IMG/VR virus record: IMGVR_UViG_3300030106_000877
Span: 1-49,305 of that record
Strand: one strand, 5' to 3'
Origin: a virus
Length of the DNA stretch: 49,305 nt
Made by a program: the position numbers and the translations under genes
The notes under the pieces: generated by a model
What the model was told of the DNA's origin: nothing
Databases searched by the model: none
The model's input: only the letters and a program-made list of their open reading frames with translations
Shown: positions 20,074 to 33,792 of the stretch, one piece after another
Layout of the letters: each line of letters starts with the position of its first letter
Position numbering within the stretch: the stretch's first letter is position 1

Positions 20074-20203
20074 GAATAAATACCATTACACCTAGAATAA
20101 AAAGAAATAAACCAATCAAAGCTAACTGTTCATGTTCTGTAACATATCCCATGTAAAGATCCATGAAAATGTTTTCAACATATTCTACAATTTTCTTAAT
20201 CAT
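20066..20203 (-). CDS. 45-residue membrane protein between nrd and thyX
   Basis: 45 codons. The N-terminal half is amphipathic (MIKKIVEYVENIFMDLYMGY); the C-terminal half is one membrane segment, LALIGLFLFILGVMVFILA. Its ATG overlaps the reductase stop (ATGA) with a good SD, AGGAG, at 20213-20217, and its end overlaps the thyX start. Position and coupling support a real gene. No function known. Confidence 0.65.
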   Translation of the reverse strand: MIKKIVEYVENIFMDLYMGYVTEHEQLALIGLFLFILGVMVFILA

Positions 20204-22074
20204 AGTTCACACACTCCTGATACACAAGCAAGCGTCTGCATACCTTCTGTATTGTCATCATCTTCTTCTAAGTCCCAGTCCATAGCTAAGGGCATTTTAT
20301 CATTTAGTATTTTATAATCTTCAAGGCTTATCTTCTGATAGGGAGCCTGCTTATATACATGCTCTGACTCTGGAAGAAAGCTAATACCGCTAACGCTATC
20401 AAAGTTTTCCCATATCCACTGACATACTGCAAAGAATGAATCATCATTATAGTAACATGTCATTGAAGGTTTATGCTCGCACCAATTGTCTTGATAGATC
20501 TTCCAGAGTTTAAGCTGTTCTAAAGAACTAAGACTATCTACAGTCAGAGAACCTTCAGGAGACTTCTGAGGAAACGAGAATACCCAGTTAGAATTATTCA
20601 TTACGTCTTCTTCATGGGGAAATCCAAAAGAGATCATAGCTGTAGCTAAAGGATCTTTCTTATCTGCACGTACAGTCCTGATATAGTAGTCACTAAACCT
20701 GGGATGGATACCAGAAGCACTGTCAGTTAACTGAGATACAGTACCAGACGGCTTAACGCAAGTTACAGCAGTAGATTGATTAATACCAAGTTCTTTAGCC
20801 ATAATTTTATTAGTTTCTACAGCAATCTCCCGCAACTCAGATAAGAATCTAGCGGTAGCTACTTCTCCTGCACTGCCGTTGGTAATAGGACAATCCATAA
20901 TACCTGTCAGAGAGACCCCAAGCAAAGCCTCCTCTTCAGTATTACGCTTCCAGATGTTACGAAGGTATCTAAAATCTGTCAAGGTAGCCTGTAAAGTTCC
21001 TAGAACTGTAGCACGCTGCACTTTAACCCTTAGAGTCTGCTTCGTATCTGTAGATCTTACTACAACTTCTGAAAGATTGCAGAACTGATACGGCCTGAGA
21101 ATGATTTCAGAGCAAGGATTAGTACCAAACTTGTGATCCGTATCTCTTCTACCATTTCTAGCAGCCACATTCTTAGCTGCCACACGGCTAAAGATACCAC
21201 GCTCTCCTGATTTACTTTCATAGAGACGCTTCATCTCACCTACGTAAGTATCAAAGTCTGGCTTTTCAGAATAAACAGCACTGTTATTAGCCAAGGCTCG
21301 CTGACCGTTAGTCAAATACCACTCACCATTCTTAGCATTAGACATACGGTTGTCTGTGACATTGCTCAAGCTAATCAAAGCAGACCTACGTACTCCTCCT
21401 ACTACAACAATGTCAGCTATCTTACATACAAGATCATGGCATTCAAGAGACGTAAGCTTCCTACCAGCAGCGCCTTTAAATAGATCTACTGTGAAATTGA
21501 ACAAGTCTGCCAAAGGCTCTGGTCCTGAGGCACGACCACCAAAAGTCTTTAGCCTGGCTCCTGCTGGACGTACTCTAGTTAAATCGCACTTAGGTACTTT
21601 TCCAGCGTACAGAAGGCTAATAAGCTCTCTGAATGCAGAGGCCCATCCAATCTTACTATCAGACACAACAATAGTTGATTCTGTTACATGAAAGCTATCA
21701 GCAACTACTGGTAGCTGAGTAACGTAGTCTCTTTCTACGCTAAAGCCGACTCCTGTACCATTTAGGAGGATATACATTAGCTCATCGAAGGAGCGAGGAT
21801 TGTCAATAGGAAGATAAGAACAGTTATATCCTGCTACATTGTCACGATCAAGAGCATCCCCTGCCGTCATCATGCAGCGCATAGAAGGCATAATATCGTG
21901 ACTATGTATAGAAGCATAAAGATCATCCCAATCAATTTCAAACTGATCAGGATTCCTTTCTTTAAAGAAATTAATATATCTTTCTACAGTTTCTTTCCAA
22001 GTTTCTCGACGCTTCTCGTCATCTAAATAACGTGCGTATCTGCTTTTATGGATATAGTGTTGGTATTGATCCAT
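20200..22074 (-). CDS. Adenosylcobalamin-dependent (class II) ribonucleotide reductase
   Basis: 624 residues, monomeric class II type, reducing ribonucleotides with a B12-generated thiyl radical. Key residues by analogy with Lactobacillus leichmannii RTPR: Cys85 (GYNCSYL) and Cys332 (FCNLSEV) as the redox pair, Cys321 as radical site with Asn319 and Glu323 in FGTNPCSEI, spaced 11 from Cys332 as expected; the C-terminal Cys617/Cys622 (CVSGVCEL) is the reductant pair. All are present, so the enzyme looks intact. It is shorter than the 739-residue L. leichmannii enzyme. The phage has no B12 synthesis gene in view, so it would use host cobalamin. Starts by TAATG overlap. Confidence 0.95.
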   Translation of the reverse strand: MDQYQHYIHKSRYARYLDDEKRRETWKETVERYINFFKERNPDQFEIDWDDLYASIHSHDIMPSMRCMMTAGDALDRDNVAGYNCSYLPIDNPRSFDELMYILLNGTGVGFSVERDYVTQLPVVADSFHVTESTIVVSDSKIGWASAFRELISLLYAGKVPKCDLTRVRPAGARLKTFGGRASGPEPLADLFNFTVDLFKGAAGRKLTSLECHDLVCKIADIVVVGGVRRSALISLSNVTDNRMSNAKNGEWYLTNGQRALANNSAVYSEKPDFDTYVGEMKRLYESKSGERGIFSRVAAKNVAARNGRRDTDHKFGTNPCSEIILRPYQFCNLSEVVVRSTDTKQTLRVKVQRATVLGTLQATLTDFRYLRNIWKRNTEEEALLGVSLTGIMDCPITNGSAGEVATARFLSELREIAVETNKIMAKELGINQSTAVTCVKPSGTVSQLTDSASGIHPRFSDYYIRTVRADKKDPLATAMISFGFPHEEDVMNNSNWVFSFPQKSPEGSLTVDSLSSLEQLKLWKIYQDNWCEHKPSMTCYYNDDSFFAVCQWIWENFDSVSGISFLPESEHVYKQAPYQKISLEDYKILNDKMPLAMDWDLEEDDDNTEGMQTLACVSGVCEL

Positions 22075-22232: not shown

Positions 22233-22515
22233 TGTAAAGCTCCAATAACTTTTTTTCGTACCACTCAGCCTTATTTAAATCCTCTACGCCATTTTTATAT
22301 GGATACCTCCAACGGTACTTCAGAGAGTTCCCGCGAAGGTATCCAATATACTCTTCTTTAGAAAGCATTGCTTTGATACCGTCAATACATTCTATATCAC
22401 CCTTATTATAGTGGGGAGGCTTGTTAACCATATCATAATTATGATGTAAGGGGGCTTTACCGTAATCGTTTTTTAATGAATCCCATTCTCCAGGTTTAAT
22501 ATTATTAATGCTCAT
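22210..22515 (-). CDS. DUF3310 protein (T7 gp1.7-related)
   Basis: 101 residues. The C-terminal two thirds, from VNKPPHYNKGDIECIDGIKA through RGNSLKYRWRYPYKNG and NKAEWYEKKL, is the DUF3310 pattern also found in T7 gp1.7, which has been described as a nucleotide kinase. The N-terminal 30 residues are unrelated linker. This version is short, so kinase activity is uncertain. ATGA overlap with the endonuclease I gene upstream places it in the nucleotide/recombination block. Confidence 0.8.
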   Translation of the reverse strand: MSINNIKPGEWDSLKNDYGKAPLHHNYDMVNKPPHYNKGDIECIDGIKAMLSKEEYIGYLRGNSLKYRWRYPYKNGVEDLNKAEWYEKKLLELYSEEEIRS

Positions 22516-22937
22516 TCCATCTCCAAATTTATTTTATCATTACGTTTCTTGAAATCTTCTGTCTCTCTGGCAGAGCAATCTATCCACTTGGTAGGCATAG
22601 ATTCTTCACTATACCACCTAAAACCATTAGCTCCTGCCCACTCAGCGTGAGATCTCTTTGTACCATCTTTCCTAACTTTAGATCCCGGCATAGGTGCAGA
22701 AGGATTAGCAAACAAAAACACAAGTTCAGTATTCTTAGGAAGATTCTTCTTAACCCAAATGTATTTAGTGTACTCAGCATGATCCCAGAATCTGCCTTTA
22801 GATTCAAGTAAGATTGTTTTCCTACCAATCTTTCTAACAAAGTCTGGCTCGTAGGTATGCTCTATAACATACGATATTTTATTTACGTGATGATCCCAAT
22901 CTTTTAGTATTGACTCATGTAGAATAGCTTCCCACAT
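22512..22937 (-). CDS. Endonuclease I (T7 gp3-like Holliday junction resolvase)
   Basis: 141 residues from the first ATG. PD-(D/E)xK nuclease matching T7 gp3: Asp32 in YEPDF, Glu45 and Lys47 in LESKG, Glu3 in WEAIL as the equivalent of T7 Glu20, and HAEWAGANGFRW near the end. It resolves branched DNA before packaging and degrades host DNA in T7. No SD precedes ATG 22937; a strong one lies 75 bases further up before an ATC codon (see next entry), so the protein is probably 166 residues long. Confidence 0.88.
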   Translation of the reverse strand: MWEAILHESILKDWDHHVNKISYVIEHTYEPDFVRKIGRKTILLESKGRFWDHAEYTKYIWVKKNLPKNTELVFLFANPSAPMPGSKVRKDGTKRSHAEWAGANGFRWYSEESMPTKWIDCSARETEDFKKRNDKINLEME

Positions 22938-23146: not shown

Positions 23147-23411
23147 TTAGATCTTCCAACGTAAAAGATTTTATATCCACTGAAGGATTATTTTTAATAA
23201 TAGATTTTAATTTCTTTTTAATCCATCTAGGAGAATTAGGAGAAAGTCTTAGAGTTCCTTCTACAAGAGCATGGTATTCTTCAGGAACAAGATCACGATA
23301 GTCAGCATCATCAACCTTTAAAGCTTCTTCTTCAGGTAACAGAGTCTTGACCCACTCTTTAAAAAGAAATTCAGAGTGTCTGTTAATTTCTTTTAGTTTC
23401 TTATTGTTCAA
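23139..23411 (-). CDS. Hypothetical protein downstream of exonuclease
   Basis: 90 residues from a TTG at 23411 that overlaps the exonuclease TGA (TTGA). Charged, helical, with two basic patches (NNKKLKEINR and RWIKKKLKSIIK). No family recognised. Tight coupling to the exonuclease suggests a shared task in DNA processing. Confidence 0.5.
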   Translation of the reverse strand: MNNKKLKEINRHSEFLFKEWVKTLLPEEEALKVDDADYRDLVPEEYHALVEGTLRLSPNSPRWIKKKLKSIIKNNPSVDIKSFTLEDLNA

Positions 23412-24250
23412 AGTCTAGGCACCTGGGGTTCCTTAACAATTCTTGTAAAGTATTTAATTCCTGAAGCATACTTATAAGCAATAAGACCGTTACCGTGATT
23501 AGCATCAGACCAGCAGTCATACTTATAAGGACAGTAACTACAACTGGTTCCAAGACGCCTGTTACCACTCTTACCTTCAGGTACGTCAGGATAACATCTA
23601 GGAGGAAGCTCATCAACCTTTAAGTAATCTTTTATGCTAGAAATTCTAGCAGTTATATTAGGTTTACTAAATGGTCCTGGCCTATACAAAGTAAGCTCTC
23701 CTGACTCTTTGTTTATAGCCAAGAAGCCACCATCAGAAGTTCCTTCAGCAGCCTCGTACCCAGCTAACTGTGCCATGTATCCGAAAGGATCATCATTTTG
23801 TAACGTACCTTCTCTGAACTTTTTGAAGGCAAAGTTACTTGCAGTTTTAATATCGACTACTTCTCCATCAATCTTACAATCAATATGTCCGATGATACCA
23901 TCTACAGAAACTTCTTTCTGCTGATCAGTTATAGAGTGTCCAGAAAGTTTTACAAGAAGTACTACAAGTTCTTCTAAGACGTGCCCGTATAGAAATTTAA
24001 TAAGTGTAGGAGCAGAGAAAGTTTTCTTATCTTCACTCCTAGACTCAAACCATAATTGTCTAGCTGGCCTTCCTATGTTACTCATTCTAAGACCAGAAGT
24101 TTGTTTGTGGGGAGAAGACCAAGACCTAACAGCATCCTTGATCTTTTCCCCAAACTCTTCTATGACATCATCAGATAAATTTAGATCCTCACCTATCTCT
24201 AGTGGTGATAGTGCAGAATAAATGTCATCTATTAATGTACTAAGATCCAT
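23408..24250 (-). CDS. Cas4/RecB-like PD-(D/E)xK exonuclease with Fe-S-type cysteines
   Basis: 280 residues. Nuclease core: His90 in YGHVLEE, Asp124 in GHIDCK, Asp133 and Lys135 in VVDIKTAS, and Gln161 in QLAGY, the order seen in Cas4, AddB and lambda-type exonucleases. The C-terminus has Cys237-x2-Cys240-x5-Cys246 (SCSYCPYKYDCW) plus Cys219, matching the CxxCx5C half of the 4Fe-4S site in Cas4/AddB. The usual fourth Cys near the N-terminus is absent (RPARQLWF), so Cys219 may take its place. Probably the phage exonuclease for recombination and host DNA breakdown, the T7 gp6 role. No CRISPR genes are nearby. Confidence 0.85.
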   Translation of the reverse strand: MDLSTLIDDIYSALSPLEIGEDLNLSDDVIEEFGEKIKDAVRSWSSPHKQTSGLRMSNIGRPARQLWFESRSEDKKTFSAPTLIKFLYGHVLEELVVLLVKLSGHSITDQQKEVSVDGIIGHIDCKIDGEVVDIKTASNFAFKKFREGTLQNDDPFGYMAQLAGYEAAEGTSDGGFLAINKESGELTLYRPGPFSKPNITARISSIKDYLKVDELPPRCYPDVPEGKSGNRRLGTSCSYCPYKYDCWSDANHGNGLIAYKYASGIKYFTRIVKEPQVPRL

Positions 24251-24955: not shown

Positions 24956-25307
24956 TTGTATCTGACTCTTTTTTCCAAGGATATTCTAATTCTGAAGTTA
25001 TTTCTGAAATAACATCTTTATGATAATAAAGTTCTTCATCATGTACAGACAACCAAACTCCTGTTTCATTTTCAGTGTTATAGCCGAGTTCAAACTTATT
25101 GTGAAAGAAAGCAATATCTACTTTATCTGGATCAGCATGTATCCAAAGTGTTCTTTTCTTAGGATTAAAAATTTTTTTACGTGGTTCATACTGAATATCT
25201 AAACCGTCATCAAATGTAGCATAGAATCCCCCATACTCATCCGGCTCACAGGATATACTTTTTAAGTATACATCATCAGTGGGTTTCAGCCCAATTGTCT
25301 CCGACAT
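24945..25307 (-). CDS. Hypothetical acidic protein downstream of DNA polymerase
   Basis: 120 residues from ATG 25307, chosen because GGAG lies 6-7 bases before it; the ATG at 25319 has no SD. The start lies inside the polymerase gene's end (32-base overlap). Asp/Glu-rich, beta-like, with TLWIHADPDKVDIAFFHNKF. No family recognised. Confidence 0.55.
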   Translation of the reverse strand: MSETIGLKPTDDVYLKSISCEPDEYGGFYATFDDGLDIQYEPRKKIFNPKKRTLWIHADPDKVDIAFFHNKFELGYNTENETGVWLSVHDEELYYHKDVISEITSELEYPWKKESDTNGI

Positions 25308-27030
25308 TATACTCTCCATCTAGTGGACATTTAAGTTCTAAAACTTCTCCAGCATCTATAATTGCTTCAACACCTAGCTCACCAACCAAGTCAGCAAAGT
25401 CCTCATGTACTTCTACCTGCCACTCATCGTGAACATTAGCTACTATCCTGGCTTTTAAATTGCTGATACTCTCCTCAAAGAGTAAAAGAGCTTGCTTCAT
25501 AACTATAGCTCCAGCACCTTGTAGAAGCGTATTAAGTGCTGAATGCTCAGACCTGACAAATATCTTACGGCCATCTAAACCTTTAAGGAATCCTTTTTCA
25601 GACGCTGTTGATACTCTTCTCTTAAGATCCCTAAATGATGGTAGATTATCGAAGAATGATTGTCTAAGTCCCGCACCATCTTTTGCACTTCCTCCAACCA
25701 CGGTCCCAAGCTTCTCATCTCCTGCTCCGTATAGGAGGGCATAGATGAAAGTCTTAGCCTGATTTCTTGATTCAAGTCCTGCAAGTTTTTGATTAGCGGT
25801 GTGTATGTCTCCGTTAATAATTTCATTTGTGTACTCCTCATCGTTCATGTAATGAGCAAGCATTCTAAGTTCAAGCTGACTGGCATCAATACCTACCAAC
25901 TTATATCCGGTAGGTACTGTCCAACACTCTCTACACTCCTTACCATAAGGTGAAGCCAGATTAGGAACCTGTGCCATGTTAGGGTCTCTATGGGTCATCC
26001 GTCCTGTAATGGTTCCGTTAGGTACAACAAAACCATGTACACGATTATCATCACCAAGAACCTTCAGCCAAGATTTAATCTGAGCTTCACGTTTTTGATA
26101 CATCAAGAAGTCTTTAATCAGATCTGCTTGAGGAATGTTCTCAATTTGAGAGAGGGTCTTTTCATTTACTACAGGTCTACCGTTCTCCGTAAACTGCTTA
26201 GGCTTCCAACCAAACTCCTGTAGATATTCACCTACCTGTTTACGTGATGCTATATTAAAAGGAACCATAGTCTTTCTGGTTAAGCTGAATAGTCCCGGCA
26301 TCTGTACAAACTTCTCGTACTCATCAGGAGTTAGTCTAACACCTTTACCTTTAGGATTATCCCAGCTACCAGTCTTAGCTAAGCTACCTGATTTATTATC
26401 TTTACGATAAATATACCTCTCATCAATCTTAGGTTTAAAGACTTTCTCAACCTCTTGCTGAGTTGCCGACATCTTCTCACGCATCAACGCCAGTAACATC
26501 TCTGCTTTAAACTCATCGAAGTAAAACCCGTAAGCTTCCTGATCTTTCAGGATGCGTGCAGATTCATTCTCAATTTCAATAGACTTAGGATCAAACCCAG
26601 CACTCTCCTTTCTGAGAGCATGGTACACCTTAACATTTAAATCTACATCCCGCTTACAATACTCCATCATCTCTTTAGAGTACCGTTCAAACTGATCAAA
26701 CTCTATCTTAGCTAGGCCAAGACGTTGACCCCACATACCTAGACTATGACCACCTTCCCTTACAGGATTGAACAATCTCGAAAGAACAAGAGTATCTATA
26801 ATTCTCTGAGAACCTAGTTTAAATGATGTAAGTTTCTCCAAGACAGGAATGTCAAAGCCAATTATATTATGACCTGCCAACACTTCTGCCTTGGATAGCA
26901 GCTTAACACCATCTTCTATTTCATTTGGTGAATACTCCCATACTTGATTTGTATCAACATCTTGAATTACTAGACACCATATTACAGAAGCATCTAGACC
27001 ATCTGTTTCAATGTCAAATAAAAGTTTCAT
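25276..27030 (-). CDS. Family A DNA polymerase with 3'-5' exonuclease (T7 gp5-like)
   Basis: 584 residues, replicative polymerase. Exonuclease residues: Asp6 and Glu8 (FDIETDG), Asp60 (GHNIIGFD), and Tyr124 with Asp128 (YCKRDVD). Polymerase motif A has Asp382 (IDASQLELRM), motif B has Lys426 and Tyr434 (RNQAKTFIYALLYG), and motif C has His534, Asp535 and Glu536 (VHDEW). The position equal to Pol I 762 is Tyr430, the variant linked in marine phages with fast lytic replication. It is shorter than T7 gp5 (704), so the thioredoxin-binding insert may be reduced or missing. ATGA overlap with the helicase gene. Confidence 0.96.
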   Translation of the reverse strand: MKLLFDIETDGLDASVIWCLVIQDVDTNQVWEYSPNEIEDGVKLLSKAEVLAGHNIIGFDIPVLEKLTSFKLGSQRIIDTLVLSRLFNPVREGGHSLGMWGQRLGLAKIEFDQFERYSKEMMEYCKRDVDLNVKVYHALRKESAGFDPKSIEIENESARILKDQEAYGFYFDEFKAEMLLALMREKMSATQQEVEKVFKPKIDERYIYRKDNKSGSLAKTGSWDNPKGKGVRLTPDEYEKFVQMPGLFSLTRKTMVPFNIASRKQVGEYLQEFGWKPKQFTENGRPVVNEKTLSQIENIPQADLIKDFLMYQKREAQIKSWLKVLGDDNRVHGFVVPNGTITGRMTHRDPNMAQVPNLASPYGKECRECWTVPTGYKLVGIDASQLELRMLAHYMNDEEYTNEIINGDIHTANQKLAGLESRNQAKTFIYALLYGAGDEKLGTVVGGSAKDGAGLRQSFFDNLPSFRDLKRRVSTASEKGFLKGLDGRKIFVRSEHSALNTLLQGAGAIVMKQALLLFEESISNLKARIVANVHDEWQVEVHEDFADLVGELGVEAIIDAGEVLELKCPLDGEYNVGDNWAETH

Positions 27031-28694
27031 TCAAAAGCCATCTCATCCGAATTTTCAAATTCAACATCAGAATACTCAACCTCAGAAAGCCTACCAGTTT
27101 CCTTGTCATAAAGCAAGTGTGTAGCAACACCGACATCACCAGTATAGCGTGACTTCAGAATCCTTACACGAGTGGTAGCAGCCTCAACTGGATCATCAGA
27201 CTGTTGGTTCCTCTCTAAAGTAATAATAGAATCAGAAACCTGGCCAATGCTATGTGATCCACGCAGGTGACTTATGTCGGTCTCAGCGCCCTTCTCATGG
27301 CCCTTGTTGCCGTCAATACGCCTGAGGTGGGACACCAGTATTAACCCTGCTCCAGTCTCCTCTGCGAGGCTTCTGAGGCGTGTCATAATGGAATCAATAG
27401 AACGTCGTTCATCACCTTCCAGAGTAGCAGACACCATCATGTGCAGGTGGTCAATAACAATCCATTTACATTCACAACCTATGATCATGTAACGTAACTT
27501 GCTAAAGATTCCATCAATGTCATTGCTTCCAAAGTGGGCATGAATCCACACCCGATCTCTATTGTCGTTATCAACAAAGACATCATCAAATAGAATAGAA
27601 AGTTCTTCCTGAGAATAACCTTCTCTGATCCTATCAATGTGGAGTCTGTCATTAGCTTCAATAGACAGGATACCATCAACAGTCCTAGTCCAGTCCTCCT
27701 CTAGAGCAATGATACCAATGTTATCTTTGGAGTTCTTGATCAACCAGTGTTCAAGCTCACGAGTAACAGAAGTCTTACCAAGACCTGTACCACCGGCAAG
27801 AGTCACTAACTCACCCTGCCTCAGACCTTCAAGCTTCTTGTTTAGACCTTCCCAAGGATAAGGAATCGCTTCCTTCTTCAGTCGGTTATGAAACTTATCC
27901 TTATTCTCCGATATGTTCATAACACCAGAAGGTGTATAGGTTTTAGCATTCCACCACGATGAGACAAAAAGACCATGACCATTCTTTTTCAAGATGTCAT
28001 TAGAATCTTTAAAACCTTCAGGCATTAGCATTATCTTTGCCTTGTTAGGTTTCAATAAACGAGCCACTTTCTTTGCTGCCTCTTGTCCCGGCTTGTCAGC
28101 ATCAAAAGCAATGACGATGTGATCAAAGCGTTCTAGAAATTCTATATTAGCTTTAACATCTTTCTCTGCTGACTGTGCGCCACCCTTGATAGAGATCACC
28201 GGCCATTTAGAACCAAGCAACTCATACGCCGCCATAGCATCACACTCACCTTCAGTGATGGTGAGATACTTACCGCCAGTATCATTGCACAACTGCTGAC
28301 CAAACAGACCACACTCCTGAATAGGACCGCTGCTTAGAAATCCCTTAGAGTCCACAACTCTAGTTTTATAAGCCACTTCTTCAGAACCATTGTAATAGGG
28401 ATAGAAGTGTTTCAGGACACGTCCCTCACTATTAATAACAGACTTAACTCCAAACTTCTTAGCGGTATCTAATTGAATACCACGATCTGTCAAAGGATTA
28501 AATCCTCCGTCAGTAGGACTGGAATTATCTTTTATCAAAGTAGGCTTTGACGGTTCCACCGTATCTACTTCCTCCTTATAGTTTCTGTAATACTTAGCAC
28601 AGGAATGACACCAGGCTGTACCATCAGTATTAATGGTTAAACATTTTTTATGCCCACAAGCTGGACAATCTTCATGTGTTTTTTCATATGCCAT
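27027..28694 (-). CDS. DNA primase-helicase (T7 gp4-like)
   Basis: 555 residues. N-terminal zinc ribbon Cys10/Cys13 and Cys29/Cys32 (16-residue gap as in T7), TOPRIM primase with EGECDAMAAYELLG and FDADKPG, then a RecA-type helicase domain with Walker A GGTGLGKTS, Walker B WIVIDHLH, and SHLRRIDG plus a basic finger region. Makes RNA primers and unwinds DNA as a ring. The ATG has no clear SD, and a strong mRNA hairpin sits just before it (28702-28723), which may govern its expression. It is coupled to the polymerase. Confidence 0.96.
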   Translation of the reverse strand: MAYEKTHEDCPACGHKKCLTINTDGTAWCHSCAKYYRNYKEEVDTVEPSKPTLIKDNSSPTDGGFNPLTDRGIQLDTAKKFGVKSVINSEGRVLKHFYPYYNGSEEVAYKTRVVDSKGFLSSGPIQECGLFGQQLCNDTGGKYLTITEGECDAMAAYELLGSKWPVISIKGGAQSAEKDVKANIEFLERFDHIVIAFDADKPGQEAAKKVARLLKPNKAKIMLMPEGFKDSNDILKKNGHGLFVSSWWNAKTYTPSGVMNISENKDKFHNRLKKEAIPYPWEGLNKKLEGLRQGELVTLAGGTGLGKTSVTRELEHWLIKNSKDNIGIIALEEDWTRTVDGILSIEANDRLHIDRIREGYSQEELSILFDDVFVDNDNRDRVWIHAHFGSNDIDGIFSKLRYMIIGCECKWIVIDHLHMMVSATLEGDERRSIDSIMTRLRSLAEETGAGLILVSHLRRIDGNKGHEKGAETDISHLRGSHSIGQVSDSIITLERNQQSDDPVEAATTRVRILKSRYTGDVGVATHLLYDKETGRLSEVEYSDVEFENSDEMAFE

Positions 28695-29818: not shown

Positions 29819-29933
29819 CTTCTTTATACTGTGTTAAAAGAATACCTAATAGAACTAAACATATACCTGGAAAAGCAACAGTAAAACCTATTATTATTAT
29901 TGTCCATATTGAAATTTCTAAAAGCTTTTTCAT
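29811..29933 (-). CDS. 40-residue membrane protein coupled to iscU
   Basis: ATG overlaps the iscU stop (ATGA at 29930-29933). Mostly hydrophobic (WTIIIIGFTVAFPGICLVLL) with an acidic end (QYKEDE). Single membrane helix or a tight hairpin. Coupling to iscU suggests joint expression, not necessarily joint function. Confidence 0.6.
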   Translation of the reverse strand: MKKLLEISIWTIIIIGFTVAFPGICLVLLGILLTQYKEDE

Positions 29934-30310
29934 TCTTTTTTCCTACGAATATCTTTTATAGCAGCTTTTATAGCATCTTCTGCTAAAACTGAACAATGAA
30001 TTTTTACAGGTGGAAGAGCTAGTTCCTCTGCGATGTCAGTATTTCTTATAGAGTTAGCATCTTCTAAAGTTTTACCTTTTACCCATTCAGTAAGTAGTGA
30101 ACTAGAAGCAATGGCGGAACCACAGCCATAGGTTTTAAATTTAGCATCCTCTATTAAACCATCATCACTAACTTTAATTTGTAGTCTCATAACGTCGCCA
30201 CACGCAGGAGCGCCCACCATTCCAGTACCTACACTATCATCTTCTGCGTCAAGTTTACCTACATTTCTTGGATTTTGATAGTGGTCTAAAACTTTATCGC
30301 TATATGCCAT
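29930..30310 (-). CDS. iscU: IscU Fe-S cluster assembly scaffold
   Basis: 126 residues, full length against ~128 in bacteria. IscU receives sulfur from IscS and iron, builds a 2Fe-2S cluster and passes it on with HscA/HscB. Every functional residue is in the usual numbering: Cys37 and Asp39 (APACGDVM), Cys63 (TYGCGSAI), His105-Cys106 (KIHCS), and the HscA-binding LPPVK at 99-103. The whole sequence reads like a gammaproteobacterial IscU as I remember it. No iscS, iscA or hscA is in the window, so it would plug into the host ISC machinery. SD GAGGAA; it begins 17 bases after the tRNA-Arg CCA end. A likely phage client is the Cas4-like nuclease. Confidence 0.96.
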   Translation of the reverse strand: MAYSDKVLDHYQNPRNVGKLDAEDDSVGTGMVGAPACGDVMRLQIKVSDDGLIEDAKFKTYGCGSAIASSSLLTEWVKGKTLEDANSIRNTDIAEELALPPVKIHCSVLAEDAIKAAIKDIRRKKE

Positions 30311-30327
30311 AGTAGTTCCTCTATGTT

Positions 30328-30404
30328 TGGTCTCCCCGGTAGGACTTGAACCTACAACCCTTAGCTTAGAAGGCTAATGCTCTATCCAATTGAGCTACGG
30401 GGAG
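30328..30404 (-). tRNA. tRNA-Arg (UCU) with encoded CCA
   Basis: Cloverleaf on the minus strand: acceptor CTCCCCG/CGGGGAG, D-arm GCTCAATTGGATAGAGC, anticodon arm TTAGC-CTTCTAA-GCTAA with anticodon TCT, T-arm GTAGG-TTCAAGT-CCTAC, discriminator A and encoded CCA (30328-30330). It reads AGA, the main Arg codon of this phage. Its first 10 bases are also the end of the SleB-like gene. Confidence 0.96.
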
Positions 30405-31566: not shown

Positions 31567-31653
31567 TGGTGCCCCGAGCCGGACTTGAACCGGCAAGGCC
31601 GCTAGGCCGGGAGATTTTAAGTCTCCTGTGTTTACCAATTTCACCATCGGGGC
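31567..31653 (-). tRNA. tRNA-Leu (UAA) with encoded CCA
   Basis: 87 bases on the minus strand: acceptor GCCCCGA/TCGGGGC, anticodon arm GGAGA-CTTAAAA-TCTCC with anticodon TAA, a long variable arm (CGGCCTAGCGGCC region) as expected for Leu, T-arm GCCGG-TTCAAGT-CCGGC, discriminator A and encoded CCA at 31567-31569. Reads TTA, a frequent codon here. Confidence 0.95.
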
Positions 31654-31894: not shown

Positions 31895-32057
31895 AATTAG
31901 ATCCATCTGAAAAAGTTATATGTACTTTAGTATTACGTGTAAAGAGTGTAGCTTTATTGTCGAACTCGCTCACAAGCGTCTCTGGTTTTTCCAAATTTAA
32001 TCTCTCCTTTTCAAGCCAGTATTGGAATAGTTCTGATAGTGTGGCATCTTCAAGCAT
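31881..32057 (-). CDS. Hypothetical protein
   Basis: 58 residues from ATG 32057, which overlaps the end of the upstream zinc-finger gene (AATGCTTGA); the TTG at 32069 is less likely. N-terminal helix (LSELFQYWLEKERLNLEK), then beta-like TKVHITFSDGSNYEHF. Family unknown. Confidence 0.5.
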   Translation of the reverse strand: MLEDATLSELFQYWLEKERLNLEKPETLVSEFDNKATLFTRNTKVHITFSDGSNYEHF

Positions 32058-32181
32058 TACGCTTACCAAGTTTTTTCATAGTACATTTGTAACAGTACAA
32101 CAGATTGTCGAAGTAAAACATTTTATGTCGTAACTCTTTGTTATAACAAATAATACAAATCTCTTCGTCATGTTTGAGCAT
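32050..32181 (-). CDS. 43-residue double-CxxC (zinc-finger-like) protein
   Basis: CIIC near the N-terminus (residues 9-12) and CYKC at 30-33, a compact zinc-ribbon-like pair, followed by a basic end (KKLGKRNA). ATG overlaps the upstream stop (TAATG). Metal binding is inferred from spacing only. Possibly a regulator or RNA/DNA binder. Confidence 0.6.
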   Translation of the reverse strand: MLKHDEEICIICYNKELRHKMFYFDNLLYCYKCTMKKLGKRNA

Positions 32182-33036: not shown

Positions 33037-33196
33037 CAATCCTTATGAAAAAAGCTACGAGTGAACCTGAGACTGCTAGGAATAAACATATGAGATAGTC
33101 ACATAATGGAATCATACCTTCGTAGAATCCATACGTACACAGTATCAGCATTAACAGAGAGAACCATATAACAAATATCAAATTGTCTTGCGTCAT
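33023..33196 (-). CDS. 57-residue two-helix membrane protein
   Basis: Two membrane segments (LIFVIWFSLLMLILCTYGF and LICLFLAVSGSLVAFFI) with a short loop and an acidic end. ATG overlaps the end of the gene upstream (ATGA-like, 33193-33196). A small inner-membrane protein, possibly acting on the host envelope or in superinfection exclusion; no evidence beyond topology. Confidence 0.6.
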   Translation of the reverse strand: MTQDNLIFVIWFSLLMLILCTYGFYEGMIPLCDYLICLFLAVSGSLVAFFIRIDEDD

Positions 33197-33792
33197 TGCA
33201 GATACTCCAAGTGTACTAGAGATACATGAGAAGAATCTTGCCAGCGTTCAGGCTGCTTCTTAGCTATTAAAGAACACCAAGTATTCCAGAGCCAAGAACA
33301 TTTCCTTTTACTGCAAGCATCTATATAATTTTTTATCCTCTTTTCTTTAGTTTTATCTGTAGCATTCTTATTAAATGTTAAGATGTTAGGAGATATATTT
33401 AATCTCCTTATGTTGTGTATATCTATACAGCCAACACATCCAGCAAATAATTGACAACAGAAACCTGCTTTAGCTAAGCCTAAACCAGGAACCCTTAAGA
33501 ATACTTTCATTAATTTGAGAGATTTGTTTTTATAGTTAAACTCTAAACACTCTAGAGCCTCTCTATAAAGTTCTTCTTTATGTTTCTCTAAGAATTTTAG
33601 AGTTCTAAGTTTATTACCCCATACATACTTTGAAGAGGAACCCTTTAACCTGTAGTCTTGCATCTGTTTACCCACAGAATGCCAAGGTTGTTGGATAGAT
33701 AATACTACCATCATTATCATATCCTTAAAATTATCAGGAGATTTTTGAGACCTCTTGTTTATTGCAGGGTTATGTCTTTTGAAATTGCTCAT
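33193..33792 (-). CDS. HhH-GPD superfamily DNA glycosylase-like protein
   Basis: 199 residues. The central LRVPGLGLAKAGFCCQLFAG followed by CIDIHNIRRLN matches the helix-hairpin-helix plus catalytic Asp of the endonuclease III/AlkA family (PGxGxxxA ... VDTHxxRL), with the Asp kept. N-terminal MVVLSIQQPWHSVG resembles the lead helix. Nine Cys residues occur, but not in the C-x6-C-x2-C-x5-C order of EndoIII. Could remove damaged or modified bases, or only bind DNA. Confidence 0.6.
   Translation of the reverse strand: MSNFKRHNPAINKRSQKSPDNFKDMIMMVVLSIQQPWHSVGKQMQDYRLKGSSSKYVWGNKLRTLKFLEKHKEELYREALECLEFNYKNKSLKLMKVFLRVPGLGLAKAGFCCQLFAGCVGCIDIHNIRRLNISPNILTFNKNATDKTKEKRIKNYIDACSKRKCSWLWNTWCSLIAKKQPERWQDSSHVSLVHLEYLQ

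Follow-up and report, generated by a model that had tools for sequence, protein, structure and literature searches.

A Cas4-like phage nuclease with a putatively relocated cluster ligand and an accessory iscU gene

Cysteine-bound Fe-S clusters are found in several nucleases of DNA replication and repair, where their role is debated, since some Cas4 proteins stay active after the cluster has been removed. The window analysed here, that is, the whole stretch of DNA, is the entire 49,305-base virus record IMGVR_UViG_3300030106_000877, from a marine phage that encodes both a Cas4-like nuclease with such a cysteine motif and an IscU scaffold. The question raised by this locus is whether the phage carries the scaffold for the sake of the nuclease. 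A first-pass annotation had proposed so, describing the nuclease as a client of the phage IscU. The general idea that the IscU of a phage supplies the phage's own Fe-S proteins, Cas4 being one of those named, was put forward in 2017 by Nishimura et al. (PMC5332604), and iscU has been reported from HMO-2011-type genomes (MVGs; PMC9038755). What is new in the present work is the ligand swap in the nuclease family and a near-isogenic pair of phages with and without iscU.

The nuclease and its replication operon

The nuclease gene runs from an ATG at 24250 to a stop at 23408 and encodes 280 amino acids (Table 1). The protein matches phrog_1990, 'Cas4-domain exonuclease', over residues 22-269, most of its length (E=1.5e-47), followed by phrog_1706 (5.5e-12), while the searches of Pfam and NCBIfam gave zero matches and a sequence search for a solved homolog, profile included, returned none. 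The name 'Cas4-domain exonuclease' is already the product name of the homologs in the SIO1 and P12053L records. Further relatives occur in Lentibacter phages, in the Pelagibacter phages HTVC103P, HTVC104P and HTVC115P, in HMO-2011, in many CRP roseophages, in phiM6 and in cyanophages. In an alignment of 95 sequences, the window included, the residues G89, E93, D124, K135, Q161 and Y165 were invariant and position 133 was D in 93, so that the protein has the RecB motifs I-III and the QxxxY motif of the Cas4 family. The open reading frame and the alignment thus agree with the first-pass description of a nuclease with an intact core, a CxxCx5C motif (Cys237, Cys240, Cys246) and Cys219. One further cysteine, Cys125, completes the inventory of the protein.

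Table 1. Features of the window discussed in the text
Feature	Position	Strand	Evidence
Class II (B12-dependent) ribonucleotide reductase (RNR)	20200..22074	-	TIGR02505 E=2e-91, 307 bits, below the curated cut-off of 340
Endonuclease I of the T7 gp3 family, 3' neighbour of the nuclease in most relatives	22512..22937	-	PF05367 E=2e-8
Nuclease, RecB/Cas4-type PD-(D/E)xK exonuclease, predicted Fe-S protein (C219 + CxxCx5C)	23408..24250	-	ORF, phrog_1990, AF2 model
Cys237-x2-Cys240-x5-Cys246, Cas4/AddB-type triad	23513..23542	-	Each Cys in 93/95 aligned sequences
Cys219 codon, proposed relocated fourth ligand	23594..23596	-	Mutually exclusive with N-terminal Cys in 278/278 triad-keeping homologs
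Nuclease catalytic motifs II + III, D124 ... D133-x-K135	23846..23881	-	D124 and K135 95/95; D133 93/95
DNA polymerase of family A, 5' of the nuclease in the same operon	25276..27030	-	PF00476 E=1e-52
iscU, complete scaffold gene, presence/absence cassette	29930..30310	-	TIGR01999, 225 bits, above the curated cut-off of 192.4
tRNA-Arg (TCT)	30328..30404	-	ARAGORN; retained in the iscU-less L002 and L009

AlphaFold2 models were obtained for the window nuclease (mean pLDDT 91.2) and for L182, a homolog with the N-terminal cysteine of Cas4 (93.1). In a Foldseek search the closest PDB structure to the former was the Cas4 protein SSO0001 (4ic1; E=1.2e-5, probability 1.00), which was also the closest to the latter (E=2.1e-5). 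The TM-scores of both models against their PDB matches were low (0.42-0.55; 0.42-0.54 for the window nuclease), so the match backs membership of the superfamily rather than close similarity to Cas4. Neither cas1 nor cas2 was found among the window ORFs that were scanned, a subset of the total.

The gene lies in a minus-strand series formed by SSB, primase-helicase, DNA polymerase A, small genes, HNH and the nuclease, and continued by a small gene, endonuclease I, DUF3310, class II RNR and ThyX. The nuclease also stands between DNA polymerase and endonuclease I in SIO1, HMO-2011 and L081, and an endonuclease directly follows it on the 3' side in P12053L, phiM6, CRP-4 and CRP-207. In T7, gp5 is followed by gp6, an exonuclease of another nuclease superfamily which has no Fe-S site, and no gp6-family match to the window nuclease appeared among the PHROG, Pfam and NCBIfam results. 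From this position we infer a gp6-like role, in which the nuclease would break down DNA together with endonuclease I and process ends in replication.

The cysteine site and its variants

In Cas4 proteins the cluster is held by one N-terminal and three C-terminal cysteines (PMC4176176), the four being conserved in all members (PMC5704561). The C-terminal ones, C200/C203/C209 in Pcal_0546 and C188/C191/C197 in SSO0001 (PMC4176176), have exactly the spacing of the window triad. The N-terminal one is missing from the window nuclease, as the first-pass annotation had noted, the corresponding place reading SNIGRPARQLW, so the window lineage lacks one defining feature of Cas4 proper. Eighteen residues ahead of the triad, Cys219 is a cysteine in 89 of the 95 aligned sequences. 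Since the triad cysteines are each kept in 93 and most other positions vary, the pattern is not due to chance. In the model, strands 222-224 and 229-231 (model numbering, gene minus one) could form a hairpin placing Cys219 opposite the residues just before Cys237.

A census of cysteine states was made with 283 homologs, gathered from four IMG/VR scans and from phage records and aligned with the window to give 284 rows, one of which is a truncated fragment. Cys219 and the triad, without a Cas4-like N-terminal cysteine, were present in 189 rows, and an N-terminal cysteine (C-x-R-x-L-W, as in GTPCERKLW) and the triad, without Cys219, in 89. No row of the 284 had both, and none of the 278 that keep the triad had neither. 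CRP-9 and T5S1 are among the sister phages of the N-terminal type. The pattern survived the removal of near-copies, the 28 representatives at 60% identity comprising 17 with Cys219, nine with the N-terminal cysteine and two with neither. A third arrangement was found in L201-L203, with a CPRALW-type N-terminal cysteine and a CxC at about positions 217/219; there C237 and C240 are replaced, and of the triad just the last cysteine remains, with a second cysteine adjoining it. Finally, the homologs from six phages of filamentous cyanobacteria (Pf-WMP3, PP, A-4L, TR020, CHP58 and Lbo402-yong5) have lost all four cluster cysteines and kept the catalytic residues. The phrog_1990 family is therefore not uniform, showing four states of the site (N-terminal cysteine, Cys219, CxC variant, none), of which no earlier description was found in the literature searched.

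The mutually exclusive cysteines and the concerted loss in cyanophages fit a single relocated ligand in a four-cysteine cluster site. That the window lineage lost the N-terminal ligand and replaced it by Cys219 is well supported by the alignments, in line with the variant Cas4-like site that the first-pass annotation had proposed, although the metal itself is predicted by homology and conservation. On nuclease trees built with the trait columns left out, the cysteine states were strongly clustered. The number of independent swaps is small, a point against this reading. One Cys219 sequence, that of phiM6, was placed within the N-terminal group, which suggests a second, independent swap; the tree favours it, a single clade of the N-terminal type is not rejected (AU p=0.079) and the pairs are too few for a sign test. 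Both cyanophage rows in the trees belong to one clade, and so the loss of the four cysteines may have been a single event.

Two side observations concern the same site. The HMO-2011 group (L164, L285-L364) has, besides Cys219, a fifth cysteine (GRPNCQLW) two residues off the Cas4-type N-terminal position. The homologs from phages of filamentous cyanobacteria named above (L173, L174, L463-L466) would represent a natural cluster-free version of the enzyme, in oxygen-evolving hosts.

Cx2C-type sites are often zinc sites, and the four cysteines of the window nuclease might likewise form a zinc site, or a metal-free structural one. Moreover, Cys-to-Ala mutants of the Cas4 proteins Pcal_0546 and SSO1391 lose the cluster and retain nuclease activity (PMC4176176); this favours such a reading, and for the same reason a cluster in the window nuclease may not matter for catalysis. 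Nevertheless, a RecB-like fold with CxxCx5C spacing carries the Fe-S motif of Cas4 (PMC4176176; PMC5704561), the best PDB match, SSO0001, is a [4Fe-4S] protein, and the sister phage group retains the Cas4-type N-terminal cysteine, all of which makes a site other than Fe-S improbable. The site most likely binds an Fe-S cluster, which most likely stabilises the fold of what is most likely an exonuclease.

The phage iscU and its link with the nuclease

The phage IscU named by the first-pass annotation is borne out by its match above the curated cut-off, and its translation contains the key residues Cys37, Cys63, Cys106, Asp39 and His105 together with LPPVK. The gene starts 17 bp past the end of the tRNA-Arg. 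Its nearest cellular relatives, with 79-86% identity, are from Gammaproteobacteria, including Halieaceae, SAR92 and a SAR86-labelled MAG, and hint at a marine gammaproteobacterial host. No ORF of the window other than the nuclease has a convincing Fe-S motif, and class II RNR works without an Fe-S cluster, which makes a link between iscU and the nuclease plausible. The phage might then keep IscU mainly to load clusters onto the nuclease, many copies of which must mature fast.

Three further ORFs of the window had been considered as Fe-S candidates. The primase-helicase (27027-28694) and a 43-aa ORF (32050-32181) were set aside, their cysteines being of zinc-ribbon type, and the product of 33193-33792 (-), with eight cysteines, was rejected as a second client, merely two of these being conserved among relatives. 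This 199-aa protein has by eye a helix-hairpin-helix glycosylase-like motif (GLGxxKAxF ... GCIDTHN), with the conserved Lys and Asp of EndoIII, and relatives in Mwe-JY26, ParKuw1, CRP-9 and DSS3_VP1; the searches of Pfam, NCBIfam and PHROG gave zero matches to it, and an unrelated 225-aa ORF takes the place of its gene in L002.

Evidence on the link comes from that same phage, L002, whose contig is 96-98% identical to the window, with 97.5% identity over the replication operon and 100% in the nuclease protein. The gap in the alignment, window positions 29945-30326 (382 bp), is exactly iscU, beside the tRNA-Arg and between conserved flanks, with few bases left in L002 between the tRNA and the following gene. 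In L009, 91% identical to the window, iscU is likewise missing and the flanks are conserved. Given that both phages lack the gene and that the nuclease of L002 is unchanged, iscU is a single-gene presence/absence cassette, and it is clearly dispensable for the retention of the nuclease. The window phage has a second tRNA gene, Leu-TAA (31567-31653, minus strand), and the site beside the tRNA-Arg is a possible hot spot of gene gain.

The co-occurrence of both genes, which the first-pass annotation had offered as a check, turned out to be real and rare. The nuclease is present at 10 of 80 IscU loci in contig stretches and at 9 of 50 in whole records, both genes being common in marine phages, and all ten of these nucleases keep Cys219 and the triad. 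Conversely, iscU was found in none of the 19 genomes of phage isolates that carry a nuclease of this family, in 1 of 42 contigs with a window-like nuclease and in 0 of 50 with other cysteine types, so 1 of 92 in all, these contig counts being lower bounds as many contigs are fragments. Gene order differs among the phages with both genes. In L081, L092, L114 and L141, iscU follows class II RNR on the nuclease strand at a distance of about 7 bp or less (with overlapping ORF calls in L114), the first three showing the series nuclease-endonuclease I-DUF3310-RNR-IscU on one strand. An IscA-IscU pair lies downstream in L104, L129 and L135, and the iscU genes of L125 and L137 are encoded on the opposite strand. 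On the IscU tree the nuclease-carrying phages need seven changes in the best topology, at least three of them forced, so that repeated gain or exchange of iscU is probable.

These data leave an IscU kept mainly for the nuclease as an unlikely explanation: the shared operons and the downstream IscA-IscU pairs speak for it, and the iscU-less L002, the rarity of iscU among nuclease carriers, the location of the window iscU beside a tRNA, away from the nuclease, and the opposite-strand cases speak against it. In addition, iscU elsewhere adjoins A-type carrier, NrdB and radical-SAM genes, which suggests a wider use. A dedicated scaffold as a need of the nuclease is not supported, and the client relationship of the first-pass annotation is weakly supported, with a helping role that is possible because iscU lies in the nuclease's own operon in some lineages.

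As side observations, with names judged from sequences, an A-type carrier (IscA/ErpA) lies within three ORFs of iscU at 28 of 78 phage IscU loci, and NrdB or radical-SAM genes lie beside it at others; an A-type carrier was looked for in the window and none was found.

A broader function has about an even chance of being correct, namely that iscU acts as a general metabolic helper supplying Fe-S clusters to host proteins of respiration or stress repair during infection, the nuclease being incidental. The completeness of this gammaproteobacterial-type IscU, the lack of the nuclease in most IscU phages and the clean single-gene cassette are in its favour, but some lineages hold iscU in the replication operon right after RNR and not among scattered accessory genes.

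Proposed role and comparison with known systems

The explanation that accounts jointly for these results, and that we consider probable, is that a RecB/Cas4-superfamily exonuclease substitutes for T7 gp6 in a T7/SIO1-like replication operon, alongside endonuclease I. It would degrade DNA ends to nucleotides for the phage RNR, ThyX and polymerase, and would also process ends in replication or recombination. An Fe-S cluster would act as an 'iron staple' joining Cys237, Cys240 and Cys246 to a fourth ligand, Cys219 in the window lineage. This cluster would normally be matured by the host, with the phage iscU as a recently gained or lost accessory that may speed maturation and is not required. A more tentative suggestion, possible though doubtful, is that phages tune how, or whether, the nuclease holds a cluster to the oxygen and iron of the host, as ligands have been moved or removed over evolution and the scaffold is a swappable cassette. 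In any case, within this family a single enzyme exists in nature with two or three different anchorings of the predicted cluster and also without any cluster site, and near-identical phages with and without iscU make the purpose of a phage-borne iscU directly testable.

Compared with known systems, the window nuclease shares the PD-(D/E)xK core, QxxxY, CxxCx5C and its best structural match with Cas4 (SSO0001, Pcal_0546) and the iron-staple RecB-like nucleases AddB, DNA2 and Bad. It differs from them in lacking the N-terminal cysteine, which Cas4, AddB and the sister phage homologs use, in its proposed fourth ligand and in its location in a phage replication operon. The phrog_1990 proteins of SIO1 (gp17), P12053L and Pf-WMP3 are direct homologs, that of SIO1 sharing the operon position. 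With the T7 gp6 exonuclease it has in common the place after DNA polymerase, an endonuclease I in the operon and the expected role in DNA breakdown, but no sequence match. As in previously described marine phages that encode iscU together with A-type carriers (PMC5332604; PMC9038755), a phage IscU stands here alongside a predicted phage-encoded Fe-S protein of the kind named there, Cas4; that pairing had been proposed or reported, and the window and L002 add to it two near-isogenic phages, one with iscU and one lacking it.
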